From: a virus
Reading direction: 5' to 3' (one strand)
DNA: 51,673 bases
Virus record (IMG/VR): IMGVR_UViG_3300048834_001057
Location: 1-51,673 of that record
A program made the translations under genes and the position numbers. Below, piece after piece: positions 6,159 through 23,156 of the stretch; position 1 is the stretch's first letter; every line of letters begins with the position of its first letter. The notes under the pieces were generated by a model that ran no database searches, was not told where the DNA came from, and saw only the letters and a list, made by a program, of their open reading frames with translations.

Positions 6159-6443
6159 ATGTCCTTCGGTGAAACCATAAGAAAACAAAGAGAAAGTAAA
6201 AATTTGCTACTTCGTCAGGCTGCTGCCTTCTTAGAAGTTGACACAGCTTTTGTAAGTAAACTCGAAAGAGGGGAACGCAACGCAAGCCGTGAGCAAGTCG
6301 TTAAATTGGCAGAATTTCTACAAACTCCAGCCGAGCCACTCATAACAATTTGGCTTGCAGATAAAATTTCAGATACAATAAACAATAGCAAGGAGGGCGA
6401 AGATGCTTTAAAACTTGTACTTAAAACCTATAAGAAGAAATGA
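6159..6443 (+). CDS. XRE-family controller protein of the defence operon
   Basis: 94-aa helix-turn-helix protein: GETIRKQRESKNLLLRQAA, then FLEVDTAFVSKLERGERNAS, which is the typical XRE recognition helix and the usual glutamate/arginine signature. It is the size and type of a restriction-modification C protein. Its stop overlaps the start of the SNF2 gene by 4 bp (ATGA), so it is the first gene of the operon. It probably regulates transcription from the palindromic operator at 6122-6146. The family call is firm; the controller role is inferred. Confidence 0.9.
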   Translation: MSFGETIRKQRESKNLLLRQAAAFLEVDTAFVSKLERGERNASREQVVKLAEFLQTPAEPLITIWLADKISDTINNSKEGEDALKLVLKTYKKK

Positions 6444-9316
6444 GCATTACACCTTACCATGCTAAATATTTCGCATACGAACTTACCAAACGTAGTTCAT
6501 CAGACAGTATGCAAAAACTTGCTTCTACTTTAGTAGATGCACAAGTAGATTTAAACCCTCATCAAGTTGAAGCTGCATTATTTGCTTTTCGTTCCCCCTT
6601 GTCCAAAGGTGCTATTTTAGCCGATGAAGTTGGGTTAGGTAAAACAATTGAAGCTGCATTAGTAATATCTCAAAAGTGGGCAGAAAGAAAACGTAAAATA
6701 ATTATCATAACTCCTGCAAATCTTCGTAAACAGTGGTCACAGGAACTACAAGATAAATTCTTCCTTTCATCAATTATTCTTGAAGCAAAATCATTCAATG
6801 ATTGCGTTAAAAAAGGAAACTTAAACCCATTCGACCAGCCGGAAATAATCATTTGTTCATACCAGTTTGCAAGAACTAAAGAACCTTATATAAAATCAAT
6901 CGGTTGGGATTTAGCAGTGATTGATGAAGCCCACAGATTAAGAAATGTTTATAAGGCAGGTAACAAAATTGCCAAGTCAATTAAGGATGCACTGAATGAA
7001 GCTCCAAAAATACTTTTAACAGCAACCCCTTTACAAAATACCTTATTAGAGTTGTATGGTTTGGTGAGCATTATTGATGATTATTCTTTTGGCGATTTAA
7101 AAAGTTTTAAGACCCAATACAGCAGAGTAACAAGCACAGCAGATGCAGAAGCATTCACAGAGTTAAAAGAAAGACTAAAACCAATTTGTAAACGAACATT
7201 AAGACGACAAGTTTTAGAGTATATCCGTTATACAAACAGAATTGCATTGGTGGAAGAATTTTATCCTACTGATGAAGAACAGAAATTGTATGATATGGTT
7301 ACAGATTATCTGCAAGCAGAAAATCTGTATGCTTTACCTGCAAGCCAACGTAAACTGATGACTTTAATATTGAGAAGGCTTTTAGCCTCCTCTACATTTG
7401 CAATTTCAGGCACTCTGGAAGCATTAGGTTCAAAACTTAACGGTATAATTACCAAGAGCAACGAAACCAACACAGAAGAAATAATTGCCGATAATTTTGA
7501 AACCTTTGATGAATTAAAAGACGAGTGGGATGAAGATGAGGAAGAAGTAAAAGAGGAAAAGGTTTATACAAGTGAAGATTTAGAAAACATAAAATCCGAA
7601 ATACAATCATTAAAGGAATTTGAAACCTTAGCAAAGTCCATTACCAAAAATTCTAAAGGAGAAAAACTCTTTACAGCCCTTGAAAAGGGTTTTAAAGAAA
7701 TGGTAAGATTAGAAGCACCCCAAAAAGCAATCATATTTACAGAAAGCACAAGAACTCAATTATACCTCCGCAATATTTTAGAAGCCAGAGGCTATGCAGG
7801 TAAAGTGGTTTTGTTCAACGGTTCAAATACAGACCCTAAATCAAGAGAAATTTATTCAGCTTGGGCAGCTAAATACAAAAACACAGACAGAGCAACAGGT
7901 TCAAGAAGTGCTGATATGAGAGCTGCATTAGTTGACTATTTTAGAGAAGAAGCAACTATAATGATTGCCACCGAAGCAGCAGCAGAGGGTATCAATTTGC
8001 AGTTCTGTTCTATGATTATCAATTACGATATGCCTTGGAACCCCCAACGTATTGAACAAAGAATTGGTAGATGTCACCGCTATGGTCAAAAATATGATGT
8101 TGTAGTTATAAATTTCTTAAACAAAGCAAATGCAGCAGACCAAAGAGTTTATGAGTTGCTTCGTGATAAATTCCAATTATTCAATGGTGTTTTTGGTGCG
8201 AGTGATGAAGTATTAGGTAATATAGAAAACGGTGTTGATTTTGAAAAAAGAATAGCAGAAATATATCAAAATTGCAGAACCGTTGCAGAAATAAATCAGG
8301 CTTTCGATGTATTAAAAAGCGAACTAAAAGACAGTATAGAAGATGAATTTAAAAAGACCCGAAAAAACTTATTAGAAAACTTTGATGAAGAAGTACACGA
8401 AAAATTACGCATAAACCTACAAGAGAGTAAAGAGTATCTTTCAAAATACGAAACATGGCTTTGGGACATTACACAATATTTTTTAGCCACCAATGCTGAG
8501 TTTTCTGTTGATGAACATTCATTTCGTTTATTAAACAATCCATTCCCCGAAGTTAAAATACATCCTGGTCCTTATCGTATTGGTAAAAATATAGACGATG
8601 CTAATGTTTACCGAATTGGACATCCTTTGGCTCAAAAAATAATTGATACCTGCAAGGCTACTAAATTGGAAGAAATTGAGCTTGTTTTCGATTATACCAA
8701 TACAGTTAAAAACATTGCAGCCATTGAAGGTTTTGTTGGACAATCGGGTTATATGATGGGCAATGTATTAAGTATTACATCTTTTGAATTAGAAGAGTTT
8801 ATCCAATTGTGTGGTATCACCGATAATGGAGCTTTATTAGATAAGCACCAATGCGAAAGGTTCTTTTCAATTCCAGCTACCGTCAATAATTCAGCAATAG
8901 CAGTTCCATTAAGCGTTTCTCTAAAATTAGCAGAGCAAATTCGTACACATCGTTTAAGCACCTTAGATGAAATTGGACAACGCAATGCTGTTTATTTTGA
9001 AAACGAATTAGAAAAATTAGACCATTGGGGTGAAGACCGCAGAAACTCCTTAAAAGTAACCCTTAAAGATTTGGATTTTGAAATTAAGGAAGTAAAGAAG
9101 CAATCACGATTAGCACCCAATTTGCCTGATAAATTAAAACTCGAAAAACAACGTAAGAAGTTAGAAAACGAAAGAGATACTGCATGGAAAGAATATGATG
9201 GTGCAGCAAAAGAAATAGAACAAAACAAAGACAAGTTAATAGACCAGATTGAGCAAAGATTACAGCAAAATTTGAATGAAGAACCTTTGTTTTTAATTAA
9301 ATGGAAACTTATTTAA
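6440..9316 (+). CDS. SNF2/Swi2-family helicase-like ATPase of the defence operon
   Basis: 958-aa superfamily 2 translocase. Walker A DEVGLGKT at residues 62-69, DEAH at 162-165, motif III LLTATPLQN, and C-terminal lobe motifs FTESTRTQL, ATEAAAEGINLQ and RIEQRIGRCHRYGQ are all intact. An acidic insert (EEEVKEEK) separates the lobes. The last ~110 residues form a charged coiled coil ending in a hydrophobic LFLIKWKLI tail. SNF2 proteins of this length occur in bacterial defence loci, for example DrmD of class 1 DISARM, but no DISARM core gene is present here. It overlaps the gene before by 4 bp and the one after by 16 bp, so expression is coupled. Probable role: moving along or sensing phage DNA together with Mod/Res. 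Confidence 0.9.
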   Translation: MSITPYHAKYFAYELTKRSSSDSMQKLASTLVDAQVDLNPHQVEAALFAFRSPLSKGAILADEVGLGKTIEAALVISQKWAERKRKIIIITPANLRKQWSQELQDKFFLSSIILEAKSFNDCVKKGNLNPFDQPEIIICSYQFARTKEPYIKSIGWDLAVIDEAHRLRNVYKAGNKIAKSIKDALNEAPKILLTATPLQNTLLELYGLVSIIDDYSFGDLKSFKTQYSRVTSTADAEAFTELKERLKPICKRTLRRQVLEYIRYTNRIALVEEFYPTDEEQKLYDMVTDYLQAENLYALPASQRKLMTLILRRLLASSTFAISGTLEALGSKLNGIITKSNETNTEEIIADNFETFDELKDEWDEDEEEVKEEKVYTSEDLENIKSEIQSLKEFETLAKSITKNSKGEKLFTALEKGFKEMVRLEAPQKAIIFTESTRTQLYLRNILEARGYAGKVVLFNGSNTDPKSREIYSAWAAKYKNTDRATGSRSADMRAALVDYFREEATIMIATEAAAEGINLQFCSMIINYDMPWNPQRIEQRIGRCHRYGQKYDVVVINFLNKANAADQRVYELLRDKFQLFNGVFGASDEVLGNIENGVDFEKRIAEIYQNCRTVAEINQAFDVLKSELKDSIEDEFKKTRKNLLENFDEEVHEKLRINLQESKEYLSKYETWLWDITQYFLATNAEFSVDEHSFRLLNNPFPEVKIHPGPYRIGKNIDDANVYRIGHPLAQKIIDTCKATKLEEIELVFDYTNTVKNIAAIEGFVGQSGYMMGNVLSITSFELEEFIQLCGITDNGALLDKHQCERFFSIPATVNNSAIAVPLSVSLKLAEQIRTHRLSTLDEIGQRNAVYFENELEKLDHWGEDRRNSLKVTLKDLDFEIKEVKKQSRLAPNLPDKLKLEKQRKKLENERDTAWKEYDGAAKEIEQNKDKLIDQIEQRLQQNLNEEPLFLIKWKLI

Positions 9317-9522
9317 TCAACGATATGAGCAAGAGCAACGCAGAATTAGCTAAAATAATTGACGATAAATTGAAAGCGGCTGGCTTAATCAATGATACTG
9401 AAACTCAATTGGTGATTAAATTGGCAAAGGGTACTTTAAAAGATGTGGATTGGAAATTAGCATTTGAGGAAGTTTTAAATAAACCTGTTACAAAAACAAT
9501 TGATACAGATGAAGCTAAATAA
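9301..9522 (+). CDS. Small 73-aa defence-operon protein
   Basis: 73 aa from 9301, or 65 aa from the in-frame ATG at 9325 (MSKSNAELAKIIDDKLK). Predicted helical, with no recognised domain. It is squeezed between two large genes, overlapping the SNF2 end by 16 bp and the ATPase start by 14 bp, so its product is probably made in step with them. That argues it is a subunit or adaptor of the same complex rather than a chance frame. The biochemical role is unknown. Confidence 0.7.
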   Translation: METYLINDMSKSNAELAKIIDDKLKAAGLINDTETQLVIKLAKGTLKDVDWKLAFEEVLNKPVTKTIDTDEAK

Positions 9523-11839
9523 CCTCTACATATCCTCTTTTAGAGGTGCTACCAAGCCCGTAACAATTGACTTTGACCCTTCAAAGAAAATCACTATGAT
9601 TTTTGCTGAAAATGGTAATGGCAAATCAACTATTGCAGATGCTTTCATTTGCTTACTTACAGAGAATAGAGGCTCATTAGACGATAAATCTTCAATTGAT
9701 CCACAGTTTATTAAATCATTAGGTACAGGCACTGGAGAAACTAAAATAACACTAAGCACAGATATTGGAACTTATTCAGCATCATTGGCCGGTACAGCCA
9801 AAGATTTTACCAAAACACCATCAACTGGTTTACCACCATTGCGGTTTTTACGTAGAAGCCAAATCATCAACATAATGAATTTAAAACCTTCTGAAAGGTA
9901 TAATTCATTGAAGGACTATATTGATGTTTCAGGCATTTATGCAGCAGAGGAAGAGTTAAGAAAAACAAGCAGAGATGTTGATAATGAATTAGAAAATTCA
10001 GTTCGTGTACTTGCAAGTGCTAAAGATACTTTAGAACAAGCATGGATTAAAGAGGGCAAGCCACAAGGCGATATGTTATTGTGGGCAAAAGCACAAGCCG
10101 AAATGGATTTGAGTAAAGATAAAATTGCACTCAATACACTAAGATTATTAACGAATGAATGGAGGGCAATTGATAATAAGTACAAAGAAATATTAGGTTC
10201 AATAGGTGTAGTAAAGGCATCACAAACGGCATTTAACAATGCAACGGAGGCATTAAAGAAATTACAAGCTGAGAGCATTAATAACAATGCTTCGCTGTTT
10301 ACTTTATTACAACAAGCCAAAAACTATATTGCAGCAAAAGACCCTATTACAAATTGCCCTGTTTGTTCAAACGATATTGATAAAACCGAAGTGCTTACTT
10401 CTTTAAATAAGCAAATTACTTCAATGGATGCATTAGGCAAAGCAGCCAAGTTAGTAGAAGATACAAAAAAGGTAAACGATAAAAATATTGCAATTCAGAA
10501 CAAAGCAGTTGAAACATTTAGTGGGCTTTTGATTAAGTATAAAAATTCAATAGCTAAGTACAAAACAGATGTACCAGATATTGCACCTTTTGTTGATACA
10601 ATTGGCAATGATATTAGTGCTAACTATACTTGTTTTACTGCTAATATCGCACCATTAACTGCCTTGTTTGTTAGAATTGAAAATGCTGAAAAACTAAAGT
10701 CAAAAGCAATAGAGCAACACAACTTTATAAAGACACAATTTGATACAATTACCCTTCAACTCACAAAATCAGAAAAATTAGGCAAACTTTCCATTGCTAC
10801 TGCTAAAGCATTGGTTATAGTGGAGAAGGAACGCAAAGATTACTACGATAACGAATTACTATCTATATCGGGTGAAGTAGAACAGATGTATCAAAGAATA
10901 CACCCAAAAGAAGGCTTAGGAGGTATAAAACTATTTCTTAATCCAAAATTCAAAACATCTTTAGAATTACAAGCCAATTTTCATACAGAGGAAGGCATTA
11001 CACCACAATCTGTTTACAGCGAAAGCCATTTAGATACGTTGGGCATTTGCATATTTTTAGCATTGGCAAAAAAATATAGCACAGGCGACACTATCCTTGT
11101 TTTAGATGATGTGGTAATGTCAGTTGATGATAAACATTTAGACAGGTTTATTGATTTATTGCATGATGAAGAAAAACACTTTGGGCAAATAATTATTACC
11201 ACACATTACAGACCTTGGAGAGAAAGATACCGCAACAATAGAGCACCAGCAGGTAATGTTCAATTCATGGAACTTCGCAACTGGACAAAAGAAAACGGTA
11301 TTCGTGTTTTCAATAGCAAAATTATTTTAGCAGAGTTAAAGCAATTATTGGCAGATGAAAAAGATTTTCATAGAGAAAATATTGCAGGTACAGCAGGTAG
11401 AATGCTTGAAAATATTTTGGACTACATTACACTAAAATATTCATCACGTTTACCACGTAAGCCAAAAGCAGATTATCAACTTCACGAATTACTTACAGGC
11501 TTATCTAAAGAATTGCTAAAGGTTTTTAGAGTAGAACATTTCACAAAAGACGAAGATGGCAAATACTCTGTATTGTCTAATGATATTCCATTAGTGACTG
11601 TAATAGATAAATTGAAACAACTTAAAGCAGTTCGCAACCAAGTAGGAGCACATTTTAATTTTGATGGGCAGTTAGTAAGTGACGATGATGTAATTGAATT
11701 TGGAAATGCAACGGTTGAATTTGCCGAATTATTAATTTGTGCAGAAACAGGAGCATTACCCGACAAGGATAGTTCGGGTTCATATTGGGAAACAAAATCA
11801 GGTTCAATTAAACTTTATCCATTAGTTGACCCTAAATAA
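9509..11839 (+). CDS. Rad50/RloC-like ABC ATPase with zinc hook and possible HEPN domain
   Basis: 776 aa from ATG 9509 (a TTG at 9500 is also in frame). Walker A ENGNGKS (K39) is near the N-terminus. Long coiled-coil arms flank a zinc hook CPVC at 283-286. A signature-like SESHLDTLG and Walker B ILVLDD (D533-D534) close the ATPase. About 200 further residues end in a helical domain containing RNQVGAH (R709, H715), which matches the R-x4-6-H pattern of HEPN ribonucleases. RloC, a Rad50-like protein linked to R-M loci, has the same order: ABC ATPase, zinc hook, C-terminal HEPN anticodon nuclease. The architecture is seen; RNase activity is inferred. Alternatively it is a plain DNA-end sensor of the RecF/SMC type. 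It lies 15 bp before mod. Confidence 0.75.
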   Translation: MKLNNLYISSFRGATKPVTIDFDPSKKITMIFAENGNGKSTIADAFICLLTENRGSLDDKSSIDPQFIKSLGTGTGETKITLSTDIGTYSASLAGTAKDFTKTPSTGLPPLRFLRRSQIINIMNLKPSERYNSLKDYIDVSGIYAAEEELRKTSRDVDNELENSVRVLASAKDTLEQAWIKEGKPQGDMLLWAKAQAEMDLSKDKIALNTLRLLTNEWRAIDNKYKEILGSIGVVKASQTAFNNATEALKKLQAESINNNASLFTLLQQAKNYIAAKDPITNCPVCSNDIDKTEVLTSLNKQITSMDALGKAAKLVEDTKKVNDKNIAIQNKAVETFSGLLIKYKNSIAKYKTDVPDIAPFVDTIGNDISANYTCFTANIAPLTALFVRIENAEKLKSKAIEQHNFIKTQFDTITLQLTKSEKLGKLSIATAKALVIVEKERKDYYDNELLSISGEVEQMYQRIHPKEGLGGIKLFLNPKFKTSLELQANFHTEEGITPQSVYSESHLDTLGICIFLALAKKYSTGDTILVLDDVVMSVDDKHLDRFIDLLHDEEKHFGQIIITTHYRPWRERYRNNRAPAGNVQFMELRNWTKENGIRVFNSKIILAELKQLLADEKDFHRENIAGTAGRMLENILDYITLKYSSRLPRKPKADYQLHELLTGLSKELLKVFRVEHFTKDEDGKYSVLSNDIPLVTVIDKLKQLKAVRNQVGAHFNFDGQLVSDDDVIEFGNATVEFAELLICAETGALPDKDSSGSYWETKSGSIKLYPLVDPK

Positions 11840-11854
11840 AAATAGTAAAAGAAA

Positions 11855-13774
11855 ATGGCAGAAATACAAAAACAAGAACTTACCTCAATGAATATTACAG
11901 AGGATCAACTGCAAAAGTTAAAACAACTTTTCCCCGAGGCATTTACCGAAGGGCTAAAAGTAGATTGGGAAAAACTCAAACTTACATTAGGTAAGGCAAT
12001 AGATACAGGCAAAGAACGCTATGGAATGAATTGGCCTGGAAAAGCCGATTGTTTTAAAACCATCCAGCAGCCAAGCATAGCAACACTTATTCCTGCAAGA
12101 GAAGAAAGTATAGATTTTGACACCACTCAAAATTTATTTATTGAAGGCGATAATTTGGAAGTATTGAAGCTATTGCAAAAAAGCTATTTAGGTAAAATTA
12201 AGTTCATGTATTTCGACCCGCCATATAACACAGGTAAAGATTTTGTTTATCCTGATAATTATTCAGAAAGTCTTGATACCTATTTAGAATATACGGGGCA
12301 AGTAGATGCAGATGGTAAAAAGTTCGGTACTAATACGGATACTGATGGTAGGTATCATAGTAAGTGGATGAATATGATGTACCCACGTTTGTTTCTAGCA
12401 AAAAATCTATTGAAGGAGGATGGAGCTATCTTTATTTCTATTGATGATAACGAAATTCATAATTTACGTTTATTATGTAATGAAATATTTGGTGAAGAAA
12501 ACTTTGTTTCTCAGGCTGGTTGGCAAAAAGTATATAGCCCAAAAAATCAAGCGAAATTATTGTCTAATGATTACGAATATGTTTTAATCTACAGTAAAAA
12601 TAACGCAGAGTTCAAGGTTGGTTTATTGCCACGTACAGAAGAAATGAATAATAGATATTCTAATCCAGATAATGACCCAAGGGGGCCTTGGAAGTCAGGT
12701 GATTTGGTGGCTGCTGGCGAAAGAAAGGGAGGGTATTATATTGTACGTAATCCTCACAATGGCAAAGAATATAATGTACCGAGTGGCAAGCATTGGGCTT
12801 TTTCAGAGGAAACAATGAAACAAATGCTTTCTGAAAATAGAATATCATTTGGCAAAAACAATGATAGTTTTCCAAGTTCAAAACAATTTTTAAGTGAAGT
12901 CAAGCAAGGCAGAGTTCCATCTTCATTATTATCGTATAAAGAGTATGGCCATACGGATGAAGCTAAAAAGGATTTTATAAAATTATTTGGTGATGATGGT
13001 CGCACTATTTTCGAGACTTTAAAGCCAGTTAAGCTTATTAAGAAACTAAGTTTAATTGCAAATATTGGCAAGGACGATATAGTGTTAGACATATTTGCAG
13101 GTTCGGGAACAACTGCTCAAGCTGTGTATGAATTAAACTTTGAGGACGATGGCAATAGGAAATTTATTTGTGTTCAGTTACCCGAGAAAAATGATGAAAA
13201 AAGTGAAGCTTTTAAGGCAGGTTATCAATTAGTTTCTGATATAACAAAAGCGAGAATAAGAAAAGCATCTGCTAGCCTAAAAGAACAAATTGAAACTAAA
13301 AATAAAGTTGCTTCTCAAACTATTTTTGGGGCATCAAATAAAAAACAAATTGACCTTGGAGTGAAAGTTGTAAAACTTTCAAAATCCAATTTCAAAATTT
13401 GGGATGCTACATTAGAAAAAGAGCCTGAATTAATTCAAGCAAAATTATTTGAACACATACAGCATATTTCACCCGAAGCAGAGCAAGAAGCAATACTCTA
13501 CGAGTTATTGCTAAAATCAGGTTTTGAACTTACCACACCAATAGAAAAATTAACCCTTGCAGGGTTAACTGTTTTCAGTATTGCCGAAGGGCAATTGCTT
13601 ATTTGTTTAGAAAAGGAATTAACACACGATTGTCTTAAAGCAATGGCAGAGTTACAGCCTACCAGAGTTATTTGCTTAGACGAAGCATTTAAAGGTGAAA
13701 ATGCAGATGCACTAAAAACCAATGCAGTTCAAATAATGAAAAGCAAAGGAGTTGTAAACTTTAGAACGGTATAG
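11855..13774 (+). CDS. mod: Type III DNA methyltransferase (Mod), adenine-N6
   Basis: 639-aa beta-class N6-adenine methyltransferase. The N-terminal region leads to NLFIEGDNLEVLKLLQ and catalytic motif IV DPPY at 121-124. The target-recognition region lies between about 190 and 390, and the SAM-binding motif DIFAGSGT follows at 412-419. The order DPPY before FxGxG and the length are those of type III Mod proteins. It pairs with the Res gene 4 bp downstream to make the methylating and restricting complex. The frame is intact with no phase-variable tract seen in the gene. The site recognised cannot be read from sequence. Confidence 0.95.
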   Translation: MAEIQKQELTSMNITEDQLQKLKQLFPEAFTEGLKVDWEKLKLTLGKAIDTGKERYGMNWPGKADCFKTIQQPSIATLIPAREESIDFDTTQNLFIEGDNLEVLKLLQKSYLGKIKFMYFDPPYNTGKDFVYPDNYSESLDTYLEYTGQVDADGKKFGTNTDTDGRYHSKWMNMMYPRLFLAKNLLKEDGAIFISIDDNEIHNLRLLCNEIFGEENFVSQAGWQKVYSPKNQAKLLSNDYEYVLIYSKNNAEFKVGLLPRTEEMNNRYSNPDNDPRGPWKSGDLVAAGERKGGYYIVRNPHNGKEYNVPSGKHWAFSEETMKQMLSENRISFGKNNDSFPSSKQFLSEVKQGRVPSSLLSYKEYGHTDEAKKDFIKLFGDDGRTIFETLKPVKLIKKLSLIANIGKDDIVLDIFAGSGTTAQAVYELNFEDDGNRKFICVQLPEKNDEKSEAFKAGYQLVSDITKARIRKASASLKEQIETKNKVASQTIFGASNKKQIDLGVKVVKLSKSNFKIWDATLEKEPELIQAKLFEHIQHISPEAEQEAILYELLLKSGFELTTPIEKLTLAGLTVFSIAEGQLLICLEKELTHDCLKAMAELQPTRVICLDEAFKGENADALKTNAVQIMKSKGVVNFRTV

Positions 13775-13778
13775 TATT

Positions 13779-16676
13779 ATGAAATTAAAATTCGACAGTA
13801 CACAGCCGTTTCAGTTGCAAGCAGTTCACAGCTTTGTAAATTTATTTGATGGGCAGCCATTAAATCAATCCGATTATACAGTAGAAATAAATGCAAGTAA
13901 TCAGCAAGGGCAAAGTAGCATCTTTCAATCAGAACTTGGTATTGGTAACAACCTTACCATTAATGAAGAAACATTGCTAAAAAACCTACATGCTATACAA
14001 GAGGAAAATGATTTAGATGCCACACCCGAACAGGAATTTAAAAAGAACGGTTTCAACTTTTCAGTTGAAATGGAAACAGGCACAGGCAAAACTTATGTGT
14101 ATCTTCGCACCATTTTTGAACTCAGCCAAAAATTTGGCTTCAAAAAATTCATTATAGTTGTTCCAAGTGTAGCCATCAGAGAAGGTACAGTAAAGAATAT
14201 AGAAATAACAGCAGTCCACTTTAAGGCATTATACAACAATATTGAATTTGAATATTTTGTGTACGACAGTAAAAAAGCAAACCGCCTAAGGCAGTTCGCC
14301 ACCAGTAACCAGTTGCAAATAATGATAATCAATATTGATGCTTTTAACAAAGACACCAATATTTTCAACCAAGAACGTAATCAATTAAATGGCTTTAGTC
14401 CAAAAGAATTTATTAATTCAGTTAGACCATTTGTATTAATAGACGAACCCCAAAGTGTTGATAATACAAGTAAAGCACAAGAAGCCATAAAATCATTAAA
14501 CCCAATTTGCATATTCCGTTTTTCTGCTACGCATAAAAACCCTTACAATCTCATTTATAAACTAGACCCTATTAGGGCTTATGAGCTTCGTTTGGTTAAG
14601 CAAATAGTAGTAGCCTCAGTAGTAGGTGCAAATGCTCAAAACGATGCTTATGTGAAGCTATTAGAGGTAAACAACAAGGCAGGTATAAAAGCTAAAATCC
14701 GTATTCAAGTACAAGGCATTGGTGCAGTAAACGAAACAGAAATGTGGGTAAAGCAAAATGCTGATTTATTTGCACTATCCAATGAAAGAGCAGCCTATCA
14801 AAATGGTTTTGAAGTATTAGACATAAGTGCAGAACCAGGCAATGAGTATATTGATTTTACTTCGGGCAGATTATATTTAGGACAAGAAAGAGGCGGTATT
14901 ACAGATGATTTGATTGAAATACAAATTAAGAACACCATCAAAAAACACTTAGATAAAGAACTGCAATTAAAGGGAAGAGGTATAAAAGTATTGAGTTTGT
15001 TTTTTGTAGATAAAGTTGCCAATTACAGAACCTATGATGAAGAAGGGAAACCAATACCAGGTAAGTTTGCAGAGTTGTTTGAAAGGCATTATAATGAATT
15101 GATAGAATTACCCCAATACAAAGAGTTAGCTATTTTTCAAGTAGATAAGATCCATGATGGATATTTCTCAGCCGACAAAAAAGGAGTTTATAAAGACACC
15201 AACGGAAGCACCCAAGCGGATGATGATACCTATGCTAAAATCATGCGAAACAAAGAACAGTTACTTTCAATGGACGAGCCATTGAAGTTCATCTTCTCCC
15301 ACTCTGCACTTCGTGAAGGTTGGGATAATCCGAATGTGTTTCAAATATGTGTTTTAAGAGAAGTAGGCAGTACCAAAGAAAGAAGGCAAACATTGGGTAG
15401 AGGCTTGCGTTTACCAGTAAACAGCGAAGGAGAAAGAGTAAAAGACGATAGTATAAATAAACTTACTGTAATAGCAAGAGAAAGCTATGCTGATTTTGCA
15501 AATGGCTTACAAAAGGAATATGAAGAAGATTGTGGCGTTACCTTTGGTAAAGTGCCAAAAATAGCCTTTGCAAAAATTACAGCAACAGTTGGTGAAGAAG
15601 AAGTTGCCTTAGGCAGAACATCAAGTGAAAATATTTGGGCAGAATTAGTAAGCAAAGGTTTTATTGATAACAACGGTAAAATACAAAATACATTCAATCC
15701 TTCTAAAGAAGGCTTTTCATTAGGTTTATCAGAAAAGTTTGCAGAAAAAGAAAGTGATATTATTACGGTACTTCAATCCTATCAGTTAGAAAGACACATC
15801 AAAAAAGACGAAGAACCCAAGCGTTTAAAAATCAATAAACAGATTTTCCTTGACCCTGAATTTGAAAACCTTTGGAATAAAATTAAGCACAGAACAACCT
15901 ACCAAGTAGATTATTCCACAGATGTTTTAATTGCTAACGCAACTAAAACTATAAAGGAAATGGAAAAAATTGAACCAGTAAAAGTTGCTTACCGTGAAGA
16001 TATTATTGGAGTAGAAAAGAAAGGTATTACAACCACCAATACAAAAGCCAACGAAATAAAATTAGAATACTCAGGCAATCTACCAGATATTTTAGCATAC
16101 CTACAAAAGGAAACAGAATTAACACGTTCCACATTGGTTAAAATCCTTTCTGAAAGCAATCGTATTGTCGAGTTTGCTATCAATCCTCAAAAGTTTATGG
16201 ATGCAGTAGCAGCTATTATAAACAGAGAATTACACAGGCTTATGATTGATGGTATAAAGTATGAGAAACTAACAACAGGGCAAACAGAATGGAGTATGCA
16301 GCTATTCAGAGAAGAAGAATTGAAAGACTACTTTGAGCAATGTTTAGTAGTTAAAAATTCAGTATTTGATAGAGTAATTTATGATAGTGAAATAGAAAGA
16401 AAGTTTGCAGAAGATTTAGACAAAAGAGAAGATATAAAGCTATTTGTAAAACTACCATCATTCTTTAAAGTAGAAACCCCAATAGGCACATACAACCCCG
16501 ATTGGGCAATAGTAAAGCACAATGATGATACAATCTATTTAGTGAGAGAAACCAAAAGCACCAAAAACTTTGAGAAGCTAAGAAATTCAGAAGCAGACAA
16601 AATAAAATGTGGCAGAAAACACTTTGCAGCCATCGGTGCAAACTTTGATGTAGTAACTAATTCTTTGGAGGTATAA
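13779..16676 (+). CDS. res: Type III restriction endonuclease (Res)
   Basis: 965-aa superfamily 2 translocase-nuclease. Walker A ETGTGKT at 99-105, motif II DEPQ at 222-225, RFSATHK motif III, and motif VI region REVGSTKERRQTLGRGLRLP are present. The C-terminal PD-(D/E)xK nuclease shows D908 (NPDW) and E924-T-K926 (RETKS). All key residues are intact, so cleavage is expected when the partner Mod finds head-to-head unmethylated sites. It starts 4 bp after mod and closes the packed run that begins at the XRE gene. Confidence 0.95.
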   Translation: MKLKFDSTQPFQLQAVHSFVNLFDGQPLNQSDYTVEINASNQQGQSSIFQSELGIGNNLTINEETLLKNLHAIQEENDLDATPEQEFKKNGFNFSVEMETGTGKTYVYLRTIFELSQKFGFKKFIIVVPSVAIREGTVKNIEITAVHFKALYNNIEFEYFVYDSKKANRLRQFATSNQLQIMIINIDAFNKDTNIFNQERNQLNGFSPKEFINSVRPFVLIDEPQSVDNTSKAQEAIKSLNPICIFRFSATHKNPYNLIYKLDPIRAYELRLVKQIVVASVVGANAQNDAYVKLLEVNNKAGIKAKIRIQVQGIGAVNETEMWVKQNADLFALSNERAAYQNGFEVLDISAEPGNEYIDFTSGRLYLGQERGGITDDLIEIQIKNTIKKHLDKELQLKGRGIKVLSLFFVDKVANYRTYDEEGKPIPGKFAELFERHYNELIELPQYKELAIFQVDKIHDGYFSADKKGVYKDTNGSTQADDDTYAKIMRNKEQLLSMDEPLKFIFSHSALREGWDNPNVFQICVLREVGSTKERRQTLGRGLRLPVNSEGERVKDDSINKLTVIARESYADFANGLQKEYEEDCGVTFGKVPKIAFAKITATVGEEEVALGRTSSENIWAELVSKGFIDNNGKIQNTFNPSKEGFSLGLSEKFAEKESDIITVLQSYQLERHIKKDEEPKRLKINKQIFLDPEFENLWNKIKHRTTYQVDYSTDVLIANATKTIKEMEKIEPVKVAYREDIIGVEKKGITTTNTKANEIKLEYSGNLPDILAYLQKETELTRSTLVKILSESNRIVEFAINPQKFMDAVAAIINRELHRLMIDGIKYEKLTTGQTEWSMQLFREEELKDYFEQCLVVKNSVFDRVIYDSEIERKFAEDLDKREDIKLFVKLPSFFKVETPIGTYNPDWAIVKHNDDTIYLVRETKSTKNFEKLRNSEADKIKCGRKHFAAIGANFDVVTNSLEV

Positions 16677-17645: not shown

Positions 17646-18514
17646 TGCAAACGTTTTATACCATAATAAAAATAGCACCAAATACTATGACAGACGACTG
17701 TTTGTCCATAGGGTTATTGGTATGCGATGGTAGTAAATACTGGTTGCAATTTTCGGAGGAAAGAAAGAATGCTTCAAAGCGTTTGATGGATGAAAATGCT
17801 GATGCAGTTGATTTTATTGTAAAGCAAATTAACTTACATATTCAGAAATTGAACAAGGAAATCATTAAATCTAATTCTGAACTTTTCCCTCTCAATTCAC
17901 TTTTAAATTCAGAATATTTTAGTTATCTAAATAACTATTCAAATGGGTTGTTGAGGTTCTCAAAGCCATCATTTTTGAATGATGTAATCAATGAAGAGAA
18001 ATTCTTAAAACTGTTTGCTTTACTAATTGATAAAAATATAGAAAGAGAGCCTAAAGTAAAGGACACTGCAAACGATAAGTTTTATGCAGCTATCAATAAA
18101 AATCTTATCAAAAAAGTAGAGAAAAAAATACATACAAAGGTTAATATAAATTCGGCTACTCTTCCATCTATGTATTTTCAATATGAAATGGATTGCATAG
18201 GTTTAAATGGTGCTTTTGTTGGTGCAAAATCAATTCCATTCAACAAGTCAGTTCAAACATTGGATAAGGACATAACACATTACATTGCCTTAATATCTTT
18301 GCTTTCTACCAAGTACAATAAGGATGTTAAAAAAAACAATTTCTTTCTAATTGCTGATGAACCAACCGTTATTACTTCACCGGAACATAACACTTGGGAA
18401 AACATCATTCACAACCCATTATTCAAGGTAGTTAATTCAGAGCAGGTAAATACAATTACTGAAACAGTAGAAAAGACAAAGGCAAAGACCTTTTTAGAGG
18501 TATCTGCTCAATAA
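17645..18514 (+). CDS. DUF3037-like protein, partner of HipA-like kinase
   Basis: 289-aa soluble protein. The N-terminus (FYTIIKIAPNTMTDDCLSIG, then LLVCDGSKYWLQFSEER) resembles the DUF3037 family, whose members commonly begin with a beta strand followed by an N-E/D-x-x-x-x-G-V/L-L-V segment. Translationally coupled to the kinase-like gene (TAATG). No catalytic motif seen. By context it may be the regulator or the target of the kinase. Family assignment is from pattern recall and is moderate. Confidence 0.6.
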   Translation: MQTFYTIIKIAPNTMTDDCLSIGLLVCDGSKYWLQFSEERKNASKRLMDENADAVDFIVKQINLHIQKLNKEIIKSNSELFPLNSLLNSEYFSYLNNYSNGLLRFSKPSFLNDVINEEKFLKLFALLIDKNIEREPKVKDTANDKFYAAINKNLIKKVEKKIHTKVNINSATLPSMYFQYEMDCIGLNGAFVGAKSIPFNKSVQTLDKDITHYIALISLLSTKYNKDVKKNNFFLIADEPTVITSPEHNTWENIIHNPLFKVVNSEQVNTITETVEKTKAKTFLEVSAQ

Positions 18515-19884: not shown

Positions 19885-19965
19885 ATTAGGGCATTCCCTT
19901 TCAGGTCGGGCTTTCCGCTACAATCTTTTGCGAAAAGCAAAAGGATTTCCACTTCAATCCCTAAT
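19885..19965. repeat. Bacteroidota intergenic palindromic element
   Basis: ATTAGGG (19885-19891) pairs with CCCTAAT (19959-19965). Inside is a hairpin AATCTTTTGC / GCAAAAGGATT (19922-19947), with TCGGGCTTTCCGCT between. The words GGTCGGGCTTTCCGCTACAA and AAAGGATTTCCACTTCAATC resemble a repeat I recall from many Bacteroidota intergenic regions. It follows the protease stop by 6 bp and may end its transcript. Confidence 0.55.
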
Positions 19966-19969
19966 GCAA

Positions 19970-21056
19970 TTAATCAGTGTGGCTATGCCACGAATTTAAT
20001 TAATACCCCCCCGAACCAACCGCACAGTAATACGGCTTAGTGCTTTGCAACTGCACAAGGCAAACCCTTCAAAGCACTCTATGGTATTGCAGTCAGTTTT
20101 TAACTGTCATACTTTTTGTGTGGGGTGTTCCCAACCCATACAGCACATTGCTATCCTCATTCCGCTAAAGCTCCATTGCGGTAGCAAAGAGCTGTGCCAT
20201 TACACCACCCCAAACAAAAAGACATTTCACTCCAACCACCACCACCGTTCCATTTATGCCAGTATAAAAACTGCCTGAAGCTAAATAACATAATGTGGCA
20301 TTATAGTACTGCCTCTTGCCACGCTTATGCAAGCATCCAAACGCACAGTCAGTCCTATAATAACATTATGTTAAATAGCCAATACCATAGCCATTTTGAT
20401 AAAATGGAAGCCGTATTTCTTGCCAGCCCACACCCCCCAAAACCACGCACCCCAACCACCCTTTTCAGCGGTGCAGTAAAAAATAAAGCATAAGTTGTTT
20501 TATTGCCAATGTGCATTCGGTAGCTTCATTCATTCGTGTCCATTCCGTTTCAGCGTTTTGTTCATTACGCTTTGCTCCAATCTCTACACTACCTTCCACT
20601 TCATTACCTCTCATTTCATTTCAGCCACCTCGATGCACCGCACAGCAAGAGTGGCTCATTCACTTCTCTTCACAATACCCAAGCATTATTCCATTCCGCA
20701 ACTTCGGCTACTTGCCATACCACAATGCAACTTTGCAAGGTTTGCAATTGTAGCAAAGTTCAGCCATCGCTATAAGTAGCCGAAAGCTGCTCCATTCCAT
20801 ACCCATAGCAATTGTTTCGTTCCGTTCAATCACCACACTTGCTTTTTCCAACCGCACTTAAATTTTGGTATGCTTTATTTTTTTCTGCGACTTGTTAGCC
20901 CCAATCCAACGCACTGAATACATCTTGTTTATCACTATAAGAATTAAAAAATGCAACAATCATTCTGAATACAATTCTTGATTAGAATTTGAAATACTAA
21001 ATACATTTTGAAATAACCAAAAGGAAAAAAATAAAAATAAAAAGTGCAGCAAAATT
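19970..21056. other. 1.1-kb non-coding stretch with unusual composition
   Basis: No convincing gene on either strand: frames present are short, overlap one another, and translate to cysteine/histidine/serine-rich strings with no domain. The plus strand is rich in CATT/CCAC words and poor in G, unlike the genes around it. One nested stem-loop stands out (20703-20784). It may hold an origin of transfer, a large structured RNA or decayed sequence. Confidence 0.5.
20703..20784. other. Nested stem-loop in the non-coding stretch
   Basis: Outer arms TTCGGCTACTT (20703-20713) and AAGTAGCCGAA (20774-20784) are perfectly complementary over 11 bp. Inner arms AACTTTGC (20729-20736) and GCAAAGTT (20753-20760) pair over 8 bp. 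There is no T-run. Structured RNA or a DNA hairpin is equally possible. Confidence 0.6.
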
Positions 21057-21205
21057 AGGTGGCTCACACAAGCCCACGCTGATTTAAAAACCAAAAGACT
21101 ACGGCATAATGAAAGGCAAATAATCTATTTATTTTTTAATAGGTATTTGCCTTTCACCCTTCGGGACTTATTCCGTTTCCTTTTGGTTTTTAAGCCTCGC
21201 CACCT
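21057..21205. other. Stem-loop A of a homologous pair
   Basis: Three nested helices: AGGTGGC (21057-21063)/GCCACCT (21199-21205); an arm with CCAAAAGACTACGGCATAA (ends 21109) and its partner TTATTCCGTTTCCTTTTGG (21168-21186), with flanking A and T runs also pairing; and TGAAAGGCAAATA (21110-21122)/TATTTGCCTTTCA (21144-21156). The middle arms recur in stem-loop B, while outer and inner helices differ. Confidence 0.75.
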
Positions 21206-21333
21206 ATGCAAGTGCTTTCTTTTTTTTTCTGTTTTTTTTCTTTGTCAAAAATTTTATTGGTGTTGTGCGAAGCGTAGCGAAGCACAGTACAGGCAAGGGG
21301 CAGAAGCAGATACAAACTTTAAAAGCAAGTATT

Positions 21334-21756
21334 ATGCACAGTCCAAAAATTCACACATTCAACCCAAAAAATCCAGTATGCGATTTTAGCGTTTTCATTC
21401 TCTGTAAAGGATTAAACAGCGGAAAACCACTCGAAAAGCCTTGTCCAAATTGCTTTGTAATAGCTTGTAAAAATGCCGATGAAATGGATTTTTACAAAAC
21501 CCTTGCATTTGGATTATGGAAGGCAAAGCACTTTCATCAGTTCCTTGTTGGTTCTGTTATTCCATTCATCCGAATTGATGATTTTAAAAGCACCATCAAA
21601 ACCCAAGCGGAAGAAGTCAGTAAAAATAAATTGGCTTTTGCTACCGATGTGCAAAAAGTGAAGCTGATTGAACGCAAAGAAAAACAGATGTACGAAACAT
21701 TAGCATTATTAGCAGATGTAAAAAGAGCAATGATGCACCGGTACTTCAAACGGTAG
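21334..21756 (+). CDS. Small conserved-type mobile-element protein (DUF6943-like)
   Basis: 140 aa from ATG 21334. An upstream extension to 21265 lies just after stem-loop A and looks non-coding. Segments FNPKNPVCDFSVFILCKGLN, KPCPNCFVIAC and DEMDFYKTLAFGLWKAKHFH resemble a family (DUF6943, from memory) often seen on Bacteroidota conjugative elements. The C-terminal half is a charged helix. Function unknown; the CPNC pair could bind metal. It stands alone between two homologous stem-loops, which suggests that the gene and flanks move or are regulated as a unit. Confidence 0.65.
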   Translation: MHSPKIHTFNPKNPVCDFSVFILCKGLNSGKPLEKPCPNCFVIACKNADEMDFYKTLAFGLWKAKHFHQFLVGSVIPFIRIDDFKSTIKTQAEEVSKNKLAFATDVQKVKLIERKEKQMYETLALLADVKRAMMHRYFKR

Positions 21757-21830
21757 CGGTAATGGCTGCCAAAAACTGGGGAAATGCTTTTGCACCATAA
21801 AAAATTTATATGCAAAAATAGCAAGGGGGG

Positions 21831-21942
21831 CAGACGCACAAAGCCAACATTAAAAAAACCAAAAGACTACGGCATAAACACAGACCCACCGCACAAGGCT
21901 TTCATTTATTCCGTTTCCTTTTGGTTTTTTTATCCCCCTTGC
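21831..21942. other. Stem-loop B of a homologous pair
   Basis: Outer helix GCAAGGGGG (21831-21839)/CCCCCTTGC (21934-21942). The middle arms repeat those of stem-loop A: CCAAAAGACTACGGCATAA ending at 21877 and TTATTCCGTTTCCTTTTGG at 21906-21924. There is no inner helix like that of A. Outer clamps differ in sequence between A and B but pair perfectly in both. Confidence 0.75.
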
Positions 21943-22290
21943 AGAGAGAAGCATATAAATTATTTCATTATGCAAAATCATCCACGTATTTCAGCAGGCA
22001 GCCAGTTAGGCAGTTGCCATTTCTCTCAGCAGGTCATCCATCAGCACTTGCAGCTTTCAACTTTTGCCTATCAGCGTTATATCCGCAGGTCATCGTTAGC
22101 CCATCAGCCAGTTTTTGGCATCAAGGTTTATCGGCTTCCATGTGGCTGTTTCGTTTGGTGCTATCCATCAGGTGTTCGTGAGCTTTCAGCATTGCCCTTT
22201 TAGGGCTTTGTTGTTCTCATTTCGACCATAAACCCACCATAAGGATAGGGTAAAGGCAATATGATTGCCATCATAGTGAAAAATGATGCA
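21943..22290. other. Apparently non-coding stretch with short repeats
   Basis: A frame ending at 22203 is open, but its translation has no domain and an unusual His/Ser/Gln composition. The DNA carries GCAGGTCATC twice (22029-22038, 22085-22094) and several CATCAGC/CATCAGG words. I see no supported gene. Confidence 0.4.
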
Positions 22291-22349: not shown

Positions 22350-23156
22350 TTAGAAAATGTCTTGTACTTTCAACGCATTACCTGAATTGAACAAGTAGTA
22401 GTTTACACCAACTTGTTGATAGAACTCAATACCAATGCAATTCAAAACACTCACATCAGCAGTCAACACAGGTGAACCTGGCAATGTACTTGTAATGGTG
22501 GTTGGCAATGCTACTGGAGCACCTAAATCAATGTAGTTTGAATATGCAACATTTGAAAGCTCATTTAATGAAGGATCAATAGGCTCATAAATTCCAGAAG
22601 TAGAGTTGAACTCAAAATCCGAAATAACTGAAATTGCACTAATCAATCTGAAATGAGTTGCACCAGCAGGAGCATTCACAAAATTAATTGGATTGAAAGC
22701 AGGTACAGTTAAAGTTGCACTATCACGAGCAGGAGTATTTGTAAGAGTGAAAGGAGAAAAGAAAATGCTATCAAAACTCACATTCTTATCAAAATTCAAA
22801 CCTTTTAAATACTGTTGTTGTGTTGAAATCAAAATGGCTCTGTAACCCCTTGCTTCGGTTAAATCCTCCAAGTTGATTTTTTTCATGATAGCCGTTAAAC
22901 GGCCTGTAAGCTGCGGGTCACTCATTTGTTTCATCAATTGAGCTAATCCAACACGAACTGATTTTCCAGCTGCTGCACAGCCTCCAAACTCATTCATGTT
23001 TTCCCTTGTTCTTTCAAACTCAGGTGCAGTTTTTACTTGTTCACCAGTTGGTCCCCCAACTAAGCCAGCGAAGTGGCCTTGTAAACCTTTGATTTTAAAG
23101 TGGCGAATATCGCCTAATGTACCTTTGTACTTTAATGGTCCTGATTGACGTGCCAT
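22350..23156 (-). CDS. Unrecognised 268-aa protein with MARQ-x-G-x-x-KYKGTLGD N-terminus
   Basis: 268 aa with no signal peptide or membrane segment. The first ~130 residues (MARQSGPLKYKGTLGDIRHF, then GPTGEQVKTAPEFERTRENM, NEFGG) form a recognisable Bacteroidota family seen from memory in many genomes without a function. Its basic glycine-rich start and conserved FERTREN-x-NEFG block recall structural or DNA-binding proteins. The C-terminal half is beta-rich (threonine, valine, proline). It is the only minus-strand gene of the element and has its own terminator. Carriage as a cargo gene is likely. Confidence 0.7.
   Translation of the reverse strand: MARQSGPLKYKGTLGDIRHFKIKGLQGHFAGLVGGPTGEQVKTAPEFERTRENMNEFGGCAAAGKSVRVGLAQLMKQMSDPQLTGRLTAIMKKINLEDLTEARGYRAILISTQQQYLKGLNFDKNVSFDSIFFSPFTLTNTPARDSATLTVPAFNPINFVNAPAGATHFRLISAISVISDFEFNSTSGIYEPIDPSLNELSNVAYSNYIDLGAPVALPTTITSTLPGSPVLTADVSVLNCIGIEFYQQVGVNYYLFNSGNALKVQDIF

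Follow-up and report, generated by a model that had tools for sequence, protein, structure and literature searches.

Two hairpins in a 51.7-kb virus record belong to a Bacteroidota-wide family of probable single-stranded DNA promoters

At the ssoA-type single-strand origins of rolling-circle plasmids, folded single-stranded DNA is recognised by the host RNA polymerase, and the product is a short primer. In recipients of the F plasmid, ssb and further leading genes are expressed from Frpo1 and Frpo2 before the second strand is made (PMC9849209); single-stranded DNA promoters are surveyed in PMC11541004. Such promoters have so far been described from a few enterobacterial plasmids, together with sequence-similar candidates. 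No report of them in Bacteroidota was found in the literature searched, which did not include preprints and subscription journals, and the main text of the 2024 leading-region survey is without any word beginning with 'Bacteroid-'. The promoters of Bacteroidota carry TTTG near -33 and TAnnTTTG near -7 (PMC7366714, PMC2483708), the -33 motif being weakly supported in Flavobacterium (PMC7366714). We here present two hairpins, A and B, which are probably promoters that work only in single-stranded DNA and switch on protective genes upon entry into a new cell.

The hairpins lie in a 51.7-kb virus record, the whole of which was analysed and is referred to as the window. An integrase, a primase-like protein and a type III restriction-modification system with an SNF2 helicase are found on its left, and a Mu-like phage on its right. 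The restriction-modification region (6440-16676; MTase 11855-13774, REase 13779-16676) also encodes, on one strand with the system itself, an AAA ATPase, and its SNF2 helicase is DrmD-like; it follows the integrase and the primase-like gene. The Mu-like prophage (27000-51000, to the right of the elements; portal, F-like protein, prohead protease, tape measure, prophage tail) is possibly the reason why the record was classed as viral. A link between the hairpins and Mu-like phage was considered and rejected, as only 2 of the 13 genomes that have related cassettes or copies contain a Mu portal, and in neither is it on the same contig. The Flavo-1 RNA (RF01705), listed as an sRNA, was detected on the minus strand at 19900-19969 (62 bits), about 1.1 kb to the left of A; it is a separate Rfam family, near A and B but overlapping neither.

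There are exactly two copies of the element in the window, and most of what the original prediction had read from the letters holds. The middle arms common to both stem-loops are exact 24-nt direct repeats (21086-21109 = 21854-21877 and 21168-21191 = 21906-21929), whereas the outer clamps are unlike in sequence yet perfectly paired, AGGTGGC (21058-21064) with GCCACCT (21199-21205) in A and GCAAGGGGG (21821-21829) with CCCCCTTGC (21934-21942) in B. The 13-bp inner helix TGAAAGGCAAATA/TATTTGCCTTTCA is confined to A and absent from B, and the gene between the stem-loops does encode 140 aa (21334-21756). As for the limits given to them, the stem-loops are real, but a start of B at 21831 truncates its own clamp, and both elements reach further. 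The whole predicted minus-strand hairpin of A, comprising closing helix, bubble, clamp, core and inner hairpins, extends over approximately 21020-21250 (DNA fold of the minus strand, -48.5 kcal/mol), and that of B over 21799-21965, with a closing helix formed by 21799-21812 and 21951-21965 (-44.0 kcal/mol for the minus versus -38.6 for the plus strand). On the minus strand, one core arm, CAAAAGACTACGGCATAA, includes the -33 TTTG and is located at 21092-21109 in A, where TTTG is the complement of 21092-21095, and at 21860-21877 in B. The other, TTATTCCGTTTCCTTTTG, forms the template side at 21168-21185 in A and 21906-21923 in B; the arms lie within the exact repeats and are largely invariant among copies. 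Between the arms of A, the predicted inner hairpins make up a variable loop region (21110-21165), in which the 13-bp helix pairs 21110-21122 with 21144-21156 and is followed by a CCCTTCGGG hairpin at 21157-21165; this region varies freely among copies.

A -7 box stands on the minus strand at the base of each hairpin, TAATTTTG (TAnnTTTG) at 21050-21057 in A and TATTTTTG at 21813-21820 in B, the latter predicted to be unpaired in a bubble opposite 21943-21950. In the DNA folds of both elements the bubble lies outside the clamp and is succeeded by an additional closing helix, so that the predicted order in B is the GCAAGGGGG/CCCCCTTGC helix, the open TATTTTTG, and a helix closed by ATATGC/GCATAT. 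Covariance-model scores were higher on the minus strand for A (66 bits vs 25 on the plus strand) as well as for B (85 vs 36). When the plus strand was folded as RNA and compared with shuffles, z was -8.5 for A and -5.7 for B, and none of 200 shuffles equalled either.

The two stem-loops are members of a phylum-wide family. The original prediction would have been refuted by the lack of further copies with preserved pairing in any genome, or by misassembly of the region. A pattern search in one-genome-per-species data gave at least 119 stretches with both core arms around a free loop, the flanking helices being compensated, and misassembly is unlikely because a near-identical arrangement of A, gene and B occurs in an independent assembly (L072), with the same layout in L065, L079, L083 and L149. 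Among the matches listed, nearly all are from Bacteroidota (Flavobacteriia, Sphingobacteriia, Chitinophagia and a few others); in an even sample of the phylum, the pattern was present in 17 of 395 genomes, and a reversed-pattern control gave 0. In the order to which a Prolixibacteraceae locus belongs, the covariance model matched 3 of 119 genomes, one match being weak. A second pattern, run on viral contigs, returned only an already known locus, a scan with the right arm only gave mostly chance matches within genes, and blastn against phage and plasmid collections found no homologue besides an Aquimarina plasmid. A few rare matches carry the labels Pelotomaculum (L094), Parvularcula (L096), Chlorobiota (L058) and BMS3Abin03 (L125), the first two being possibly misbinned contigs. 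There is also a sub-family with the core CAAAAGCTTACGGCATAA (L179:9848, L187:10246, L190:9904, L191:9598, L192:6227), a copy of which directly follows a relaxase gene in L191 and L192.

For comparison among copies, a set of 53 diverse ones was picked for unlike flanks. In this set approximately 15-16 nt of either core arm never change, the mismatches among them, and AAAGACTACGGCATA, in the arm with the -33 TTTG, is invariant, whereas loop and flanks are free to vary. Even so, the first outer pair is Watson-Crick in 46 of the 53 copies, with all four pair types represented, compared with a mean of 22 and a maximum of 32 in shuffles. Selection for a fold had been predicted from A and B, and judged from this wider set of sequences the fold is indeed under selection, its sequence changing while the pairing stays.

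Which strand folds was assessed from stability. With the core neutralised by a symmetric one, the minus-strand hairpin was the more stable in 41 of the 53 copies and the plus-strand hairpin in 8 (p 2e-6; since the copies are related by descent, this p value and the one given below overstate). Mismatched flanks showed a smaller strand bias in the same direction, so part of the minus-strand stability is due to composition. With native cores, the minus strand was more stable in 120 and the plus strand in 7 of 132 copies, which are non-independent through their common core. Simple positional wobble counts also favoured the minus strand (38 vs 20), but were excluded as evidence because internal loops confound them. 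In the predicted folds, then, box, bubble and stability all favour the minus strand, which is the template of the downstream gene, and the element is strand-specific.

The promoter boxes themselves point to the same strand. The core terminates in CTTTTG, and within 800 bp around the copies strict TAnnTTTG forms a single peak, on the minus strand and 21-60 nt to the left of the left arm (17 occurrences in two 20-nt bins, against 0-3 per bin elsewhere), while on the plus strand there is no peak in the same 800 bp, either upstream or between hairpin and gene. In the window, 20900-22200 contains only two TAnnTTTG on either strand, at 21057-21050 and 21820-21813, that is, at the bases of A and B. 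From box to TTTG there are 19 nt via the template arm in each element (21186-21204 in A, 21924-21942 in B), as against 34 nt (A) and 39 nt (B) in linear DNA. This holds more widely: in the folded minus strand of the 53 diverse copies, 26 of 43 TAnnTTTG-like matches lie 19-21 nt from TTTG along the template arm, where 3.9 were expected (p 6e-17), and in the plus-strand control of the same copies none of 11 box-like matches did so. The signal was gone when right flanks were re-dealt among copies (mean 5.9, maximum 10), and of all words of the form ab..cdef, TA..TTTG is the commonest at this spacing on the minus strand and absent from the plus strand. In 31 copies, selected for having a box 17-22 nt away in the fold, TTTG and box are 19-47 nt apart in linear DNA; in L094 the distance is 47 nt linear versus 21 nt folded. 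Across predicted folds the pairing profile is high up to the box, low across its AnnT and high beyond, describing duplex, bubble and duplex. About two fifths of the diverse copies are without a box of at least 5/6 matches at 17-22 nt in the predicted fold, owing to mispredicted folds in some and to diverged boxes, such as TACCTTGC, in others. A scan for sigma-70-type promoters gave nothing exceeding shuffles. In these models only the folded minus strand yields the correct promoter geometry, and boxes of the host primary sigma factor are predicted to be correctly spaced only upon folding, which is one mark of the Frpo-like class. Where linear spacing is near 20, the minus-strand box of duplex DNA could belong to a leftward promoter.

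A protein-bound palindrome would be one way to account for a core that is invariant across the phylum. However, an operator or silencer recognised as double-stranded DNA by a conserved host or element protein has no need of compensatory flanking helices, conserved mismatches or a box spacing that is constant in the fold alone, and we consider this reading very improbable. Another possibility is that the plus strand is transcribed into a structured 5' leader (attenuator, protein-binding or riboswitch-like RNA) by which the downstream gene would be controlled. The elements do stand 30-360 nt before start codons and are co-directional with them, their RNA fold is strong, and a T-rich stretch lies behind many copies. 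Yet no conserved promoter lies upstream on the plus strand, the minus strand forms the better fold, and the -7 box and bubble on the minus strand would have no role in an RNA; in Rfam, A and B had no match at gathering score and belong to no known RNA family. A leader RNA is therefore quite unlikely. A fold in RNA or in single-stranded DNA had been envisaged originally, and it is the single-stranded DNA that is supported. Likewise, the suggested regulatory RNAs of conjugation survive as far as conjugation is concerned, while the conserved promoter box, being on the other strand, and the greater stability of the minus-strand hairpin speak against a transcribed regulatory RNA.

The genes behind the hairpins are in keeping with a promoter function. 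The next sizeable downstream ORF is co-directional in 102 cases and not in 14 (n=116), whereas the orientation of the upstream ORF is random (59:53), and the element is a non-coding, stable intrastrand hairpin upstream of a gene. The predicted target of A is the 140-aa gene on the plus strand, a DUF6943 member (Pfam PF22105, E 3.7e-46) with orthologues downstream of the element at other loci; that of B is a 77-aa ORF at 21970-22203, also on the plus strand and conserved in aligned homologues, which begin 48-50 nt past the core in L065, L076, L079, L083, L103, L126 and L149. No PHROG or NCBIfam match was found for the 77-aa ORF. The commonest downstream families are SSB, ParB, DUF932, RadC-like JAB and DUF6943, followed farther downstream by PRTRC genes and a T4SS coupling protein. 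Several of these (SSB, ParB, DUF932, RadC) resemble the genes served by single-stranded DNA promoters in F plasmids (PMC9849209, PMC11541004). A 268-aa protein without family matches is encoded on the minus strand of the window at 22350-23156 and is conserved beside element copies, mostly B-like, in 10 loci.

The same gene arrangement bears on the original idea that A and B are folded recombination ends of a small mobile unit, comparable to integron attC or IS200/IS605 sites. Two homologous folded sites do surround one gene in the window and in a few relatives. But most copies are single and stand before unrelated genes, their orientation to the next gene is fixed, and where pairs occur they are directly repeated around a gene of one and the same family, each copy preceding its own co-directional gene. 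Gene swapping between paired copies was not seen, nor were paired sites bounding variable cargo; the idea is largely refuted and in our estimation extremely improbable. Because A precedes DUF6943 and B precedes the 77-aa ORF, loci with two copies are more aptly seen as two predicted promoter-gene units in series than as a bracketed unit.

Linkage to conjugation genes was also observed. Of the 31 cases with a PF03432 relaxase gene within 30 kb of a copy, 28 have it on the strand of the hairpin and 24 have it downstream, and so the hairpin genes stand before the relaxase, pointing at it. Relaxases are usually located in the lagging region (PMC11541004), and the layout is the one that would be expected if oriT adjoins the relaxase, the presumed polarity of the transferred strand being read from relaxase orientation. 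A PF03432 relaxase is absent near many of the Flavobacteriaceae copies, and there is none among the window proteins scanned. An Aquimarina conjugative plasmid (L205), with annotated TraG, TraO, TraQ, MobC and relaxase, carries two hairpins (L205:3995-4180 and L205:6895-7058) in which the outer, promoter half is the same and the inner sequence is different. They stand ahead of genes for a DEAD helicase and a JAB/RadC protein; farther along, on the same strand, comes the relaxase gene, and 77 nt of the inner part recur at plasmid positions 17912 and 19201. As far as can be told from its sequence, this plasmid is a natural experiment in which the core has been replaced and the promoter geometry retained.

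Hairpin, strand, spacing, bubble, covariation, gene orientation and relaxase linkage are the grounds on which we favour single-stranded DNA promoters. The almost complete restriction of the family to Bacteroidota lends support, because the sigma factor of that phylum uses these boxes (PMC7366714, PMC2483708). Once single-stranded, which is the state of the transferred strand during conjugation, the minus strand would fold back on itself and rebuild a promoter with a -33 TTTG duplex, a melted bubble and a downstream duplex, the bubble exposing the -7 TAnnTTTG on the non-template side 19-21 nt away. The recipient RNA polymerase could use this folded promoter at once and transcribe out of the hairpin base into the gene, that is, DUF6943 for A, the 77-aa gene for B, and ssb, parB, DUF932 or radC elsewhere. 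Transcripts are predicted to begin a few nt past the bubble, near 21215 for A and 21955 for B. Second-strand synthesis would then return the arms to ordinary duplex, in which the -7 box lies on the wrong strand at no constant distance, and this would turn the promoter off. Use by RNA polymerase, the timing, and the identity of the minus strand with the transferred strand are what we infer from these features.

A possible second role is primer synthesis for the complementary strand. That could even be the only role, with RNA polymerase or a primosome priming the complementary strand at a single-strand initiation site (ssi/sso) and gene expression being incidental. The same geometry would suffice for it, the invariant core could bind a host replication factor, and the title of Masai and Arai 1997, as cited in PMC11541004, describes Frpo for both transcription and primer synthesis. 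Against this, priming alone would not require several copies in one element, each of them just before an establishment gene and co-directional with it in the proportion given above, and a pure priming site seems unlikely.

If the hairpins are taken to be promoters active in single-stranded DNA, there remains more in them than promoter boxes. The invariance of the inner core, with its mismatches, goes beyond what the -33 and -7 boxes require. It suggests that another factor is involved, which may be host-encoded, as the same core stands before many different genes. We entertain, with somewhat less than even confidence, a broader possibility, namely that the hairpins are an independently evolved class across Bacteroidota, in which the sigma boxes go together with an invariant mismatched core that a dedicated factor, probably encoded by the host, would read. 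Such a class may act as a general switch, sensing single-stranded DNA as it comes in and shutting itself off upon conversion to duplex.

Should the promoter reading be true, early expression from the incoming strand would have evolved more than once, and the leading regions and likely transferred strands of Bacteroidota ICEs could be marked by sequence alone. The genes behind the hairpins (DUF6943, DUF932, RadC-like JAB and the 77-aa ORF) would become candidate establishment or anti-defence genes. It would also offer a test of a sigma-factor-specific prediction and possibly a tool for recipient-only expression in Bacteroidota.

The closest described systems are the Frpo/ssi elements of F, ColIb-P9 and related enterobacterial plasmids. 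The present hairpins resemble these in being long, non-coding and placed in front of genes such as ssb, in boxes that intrastrand pairing rebuilds, and in near-identical copies, more than one to an element; presumably they also resemble them in their position in the leading region and in having their genes read from the transferred strand. No Frpo-bearing plasmid was matched by blastn among the 72,556 plasmid records of PLSDB, a search of plasmid records rather than a direct comparison with the letters of Frpo. The ssoA-type origins yield a short primer, whereas a gene follows the elements described here in fixed orientation. Frpo/ssi elements use TTGACA/TATAAT in place of the Bacteroidota -33/-7 boxes; unlike them, the present hairpins have an invariant mismatched core, stand before DUF932, RadC, ParB and DUF6943 targets, and occur in the phylum Bacteroidota, in ICEs more than in plasmids. 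The hairpins would thus be a new family, apparently unrelated in sequence, of an already known, Frpo-like mechanism.
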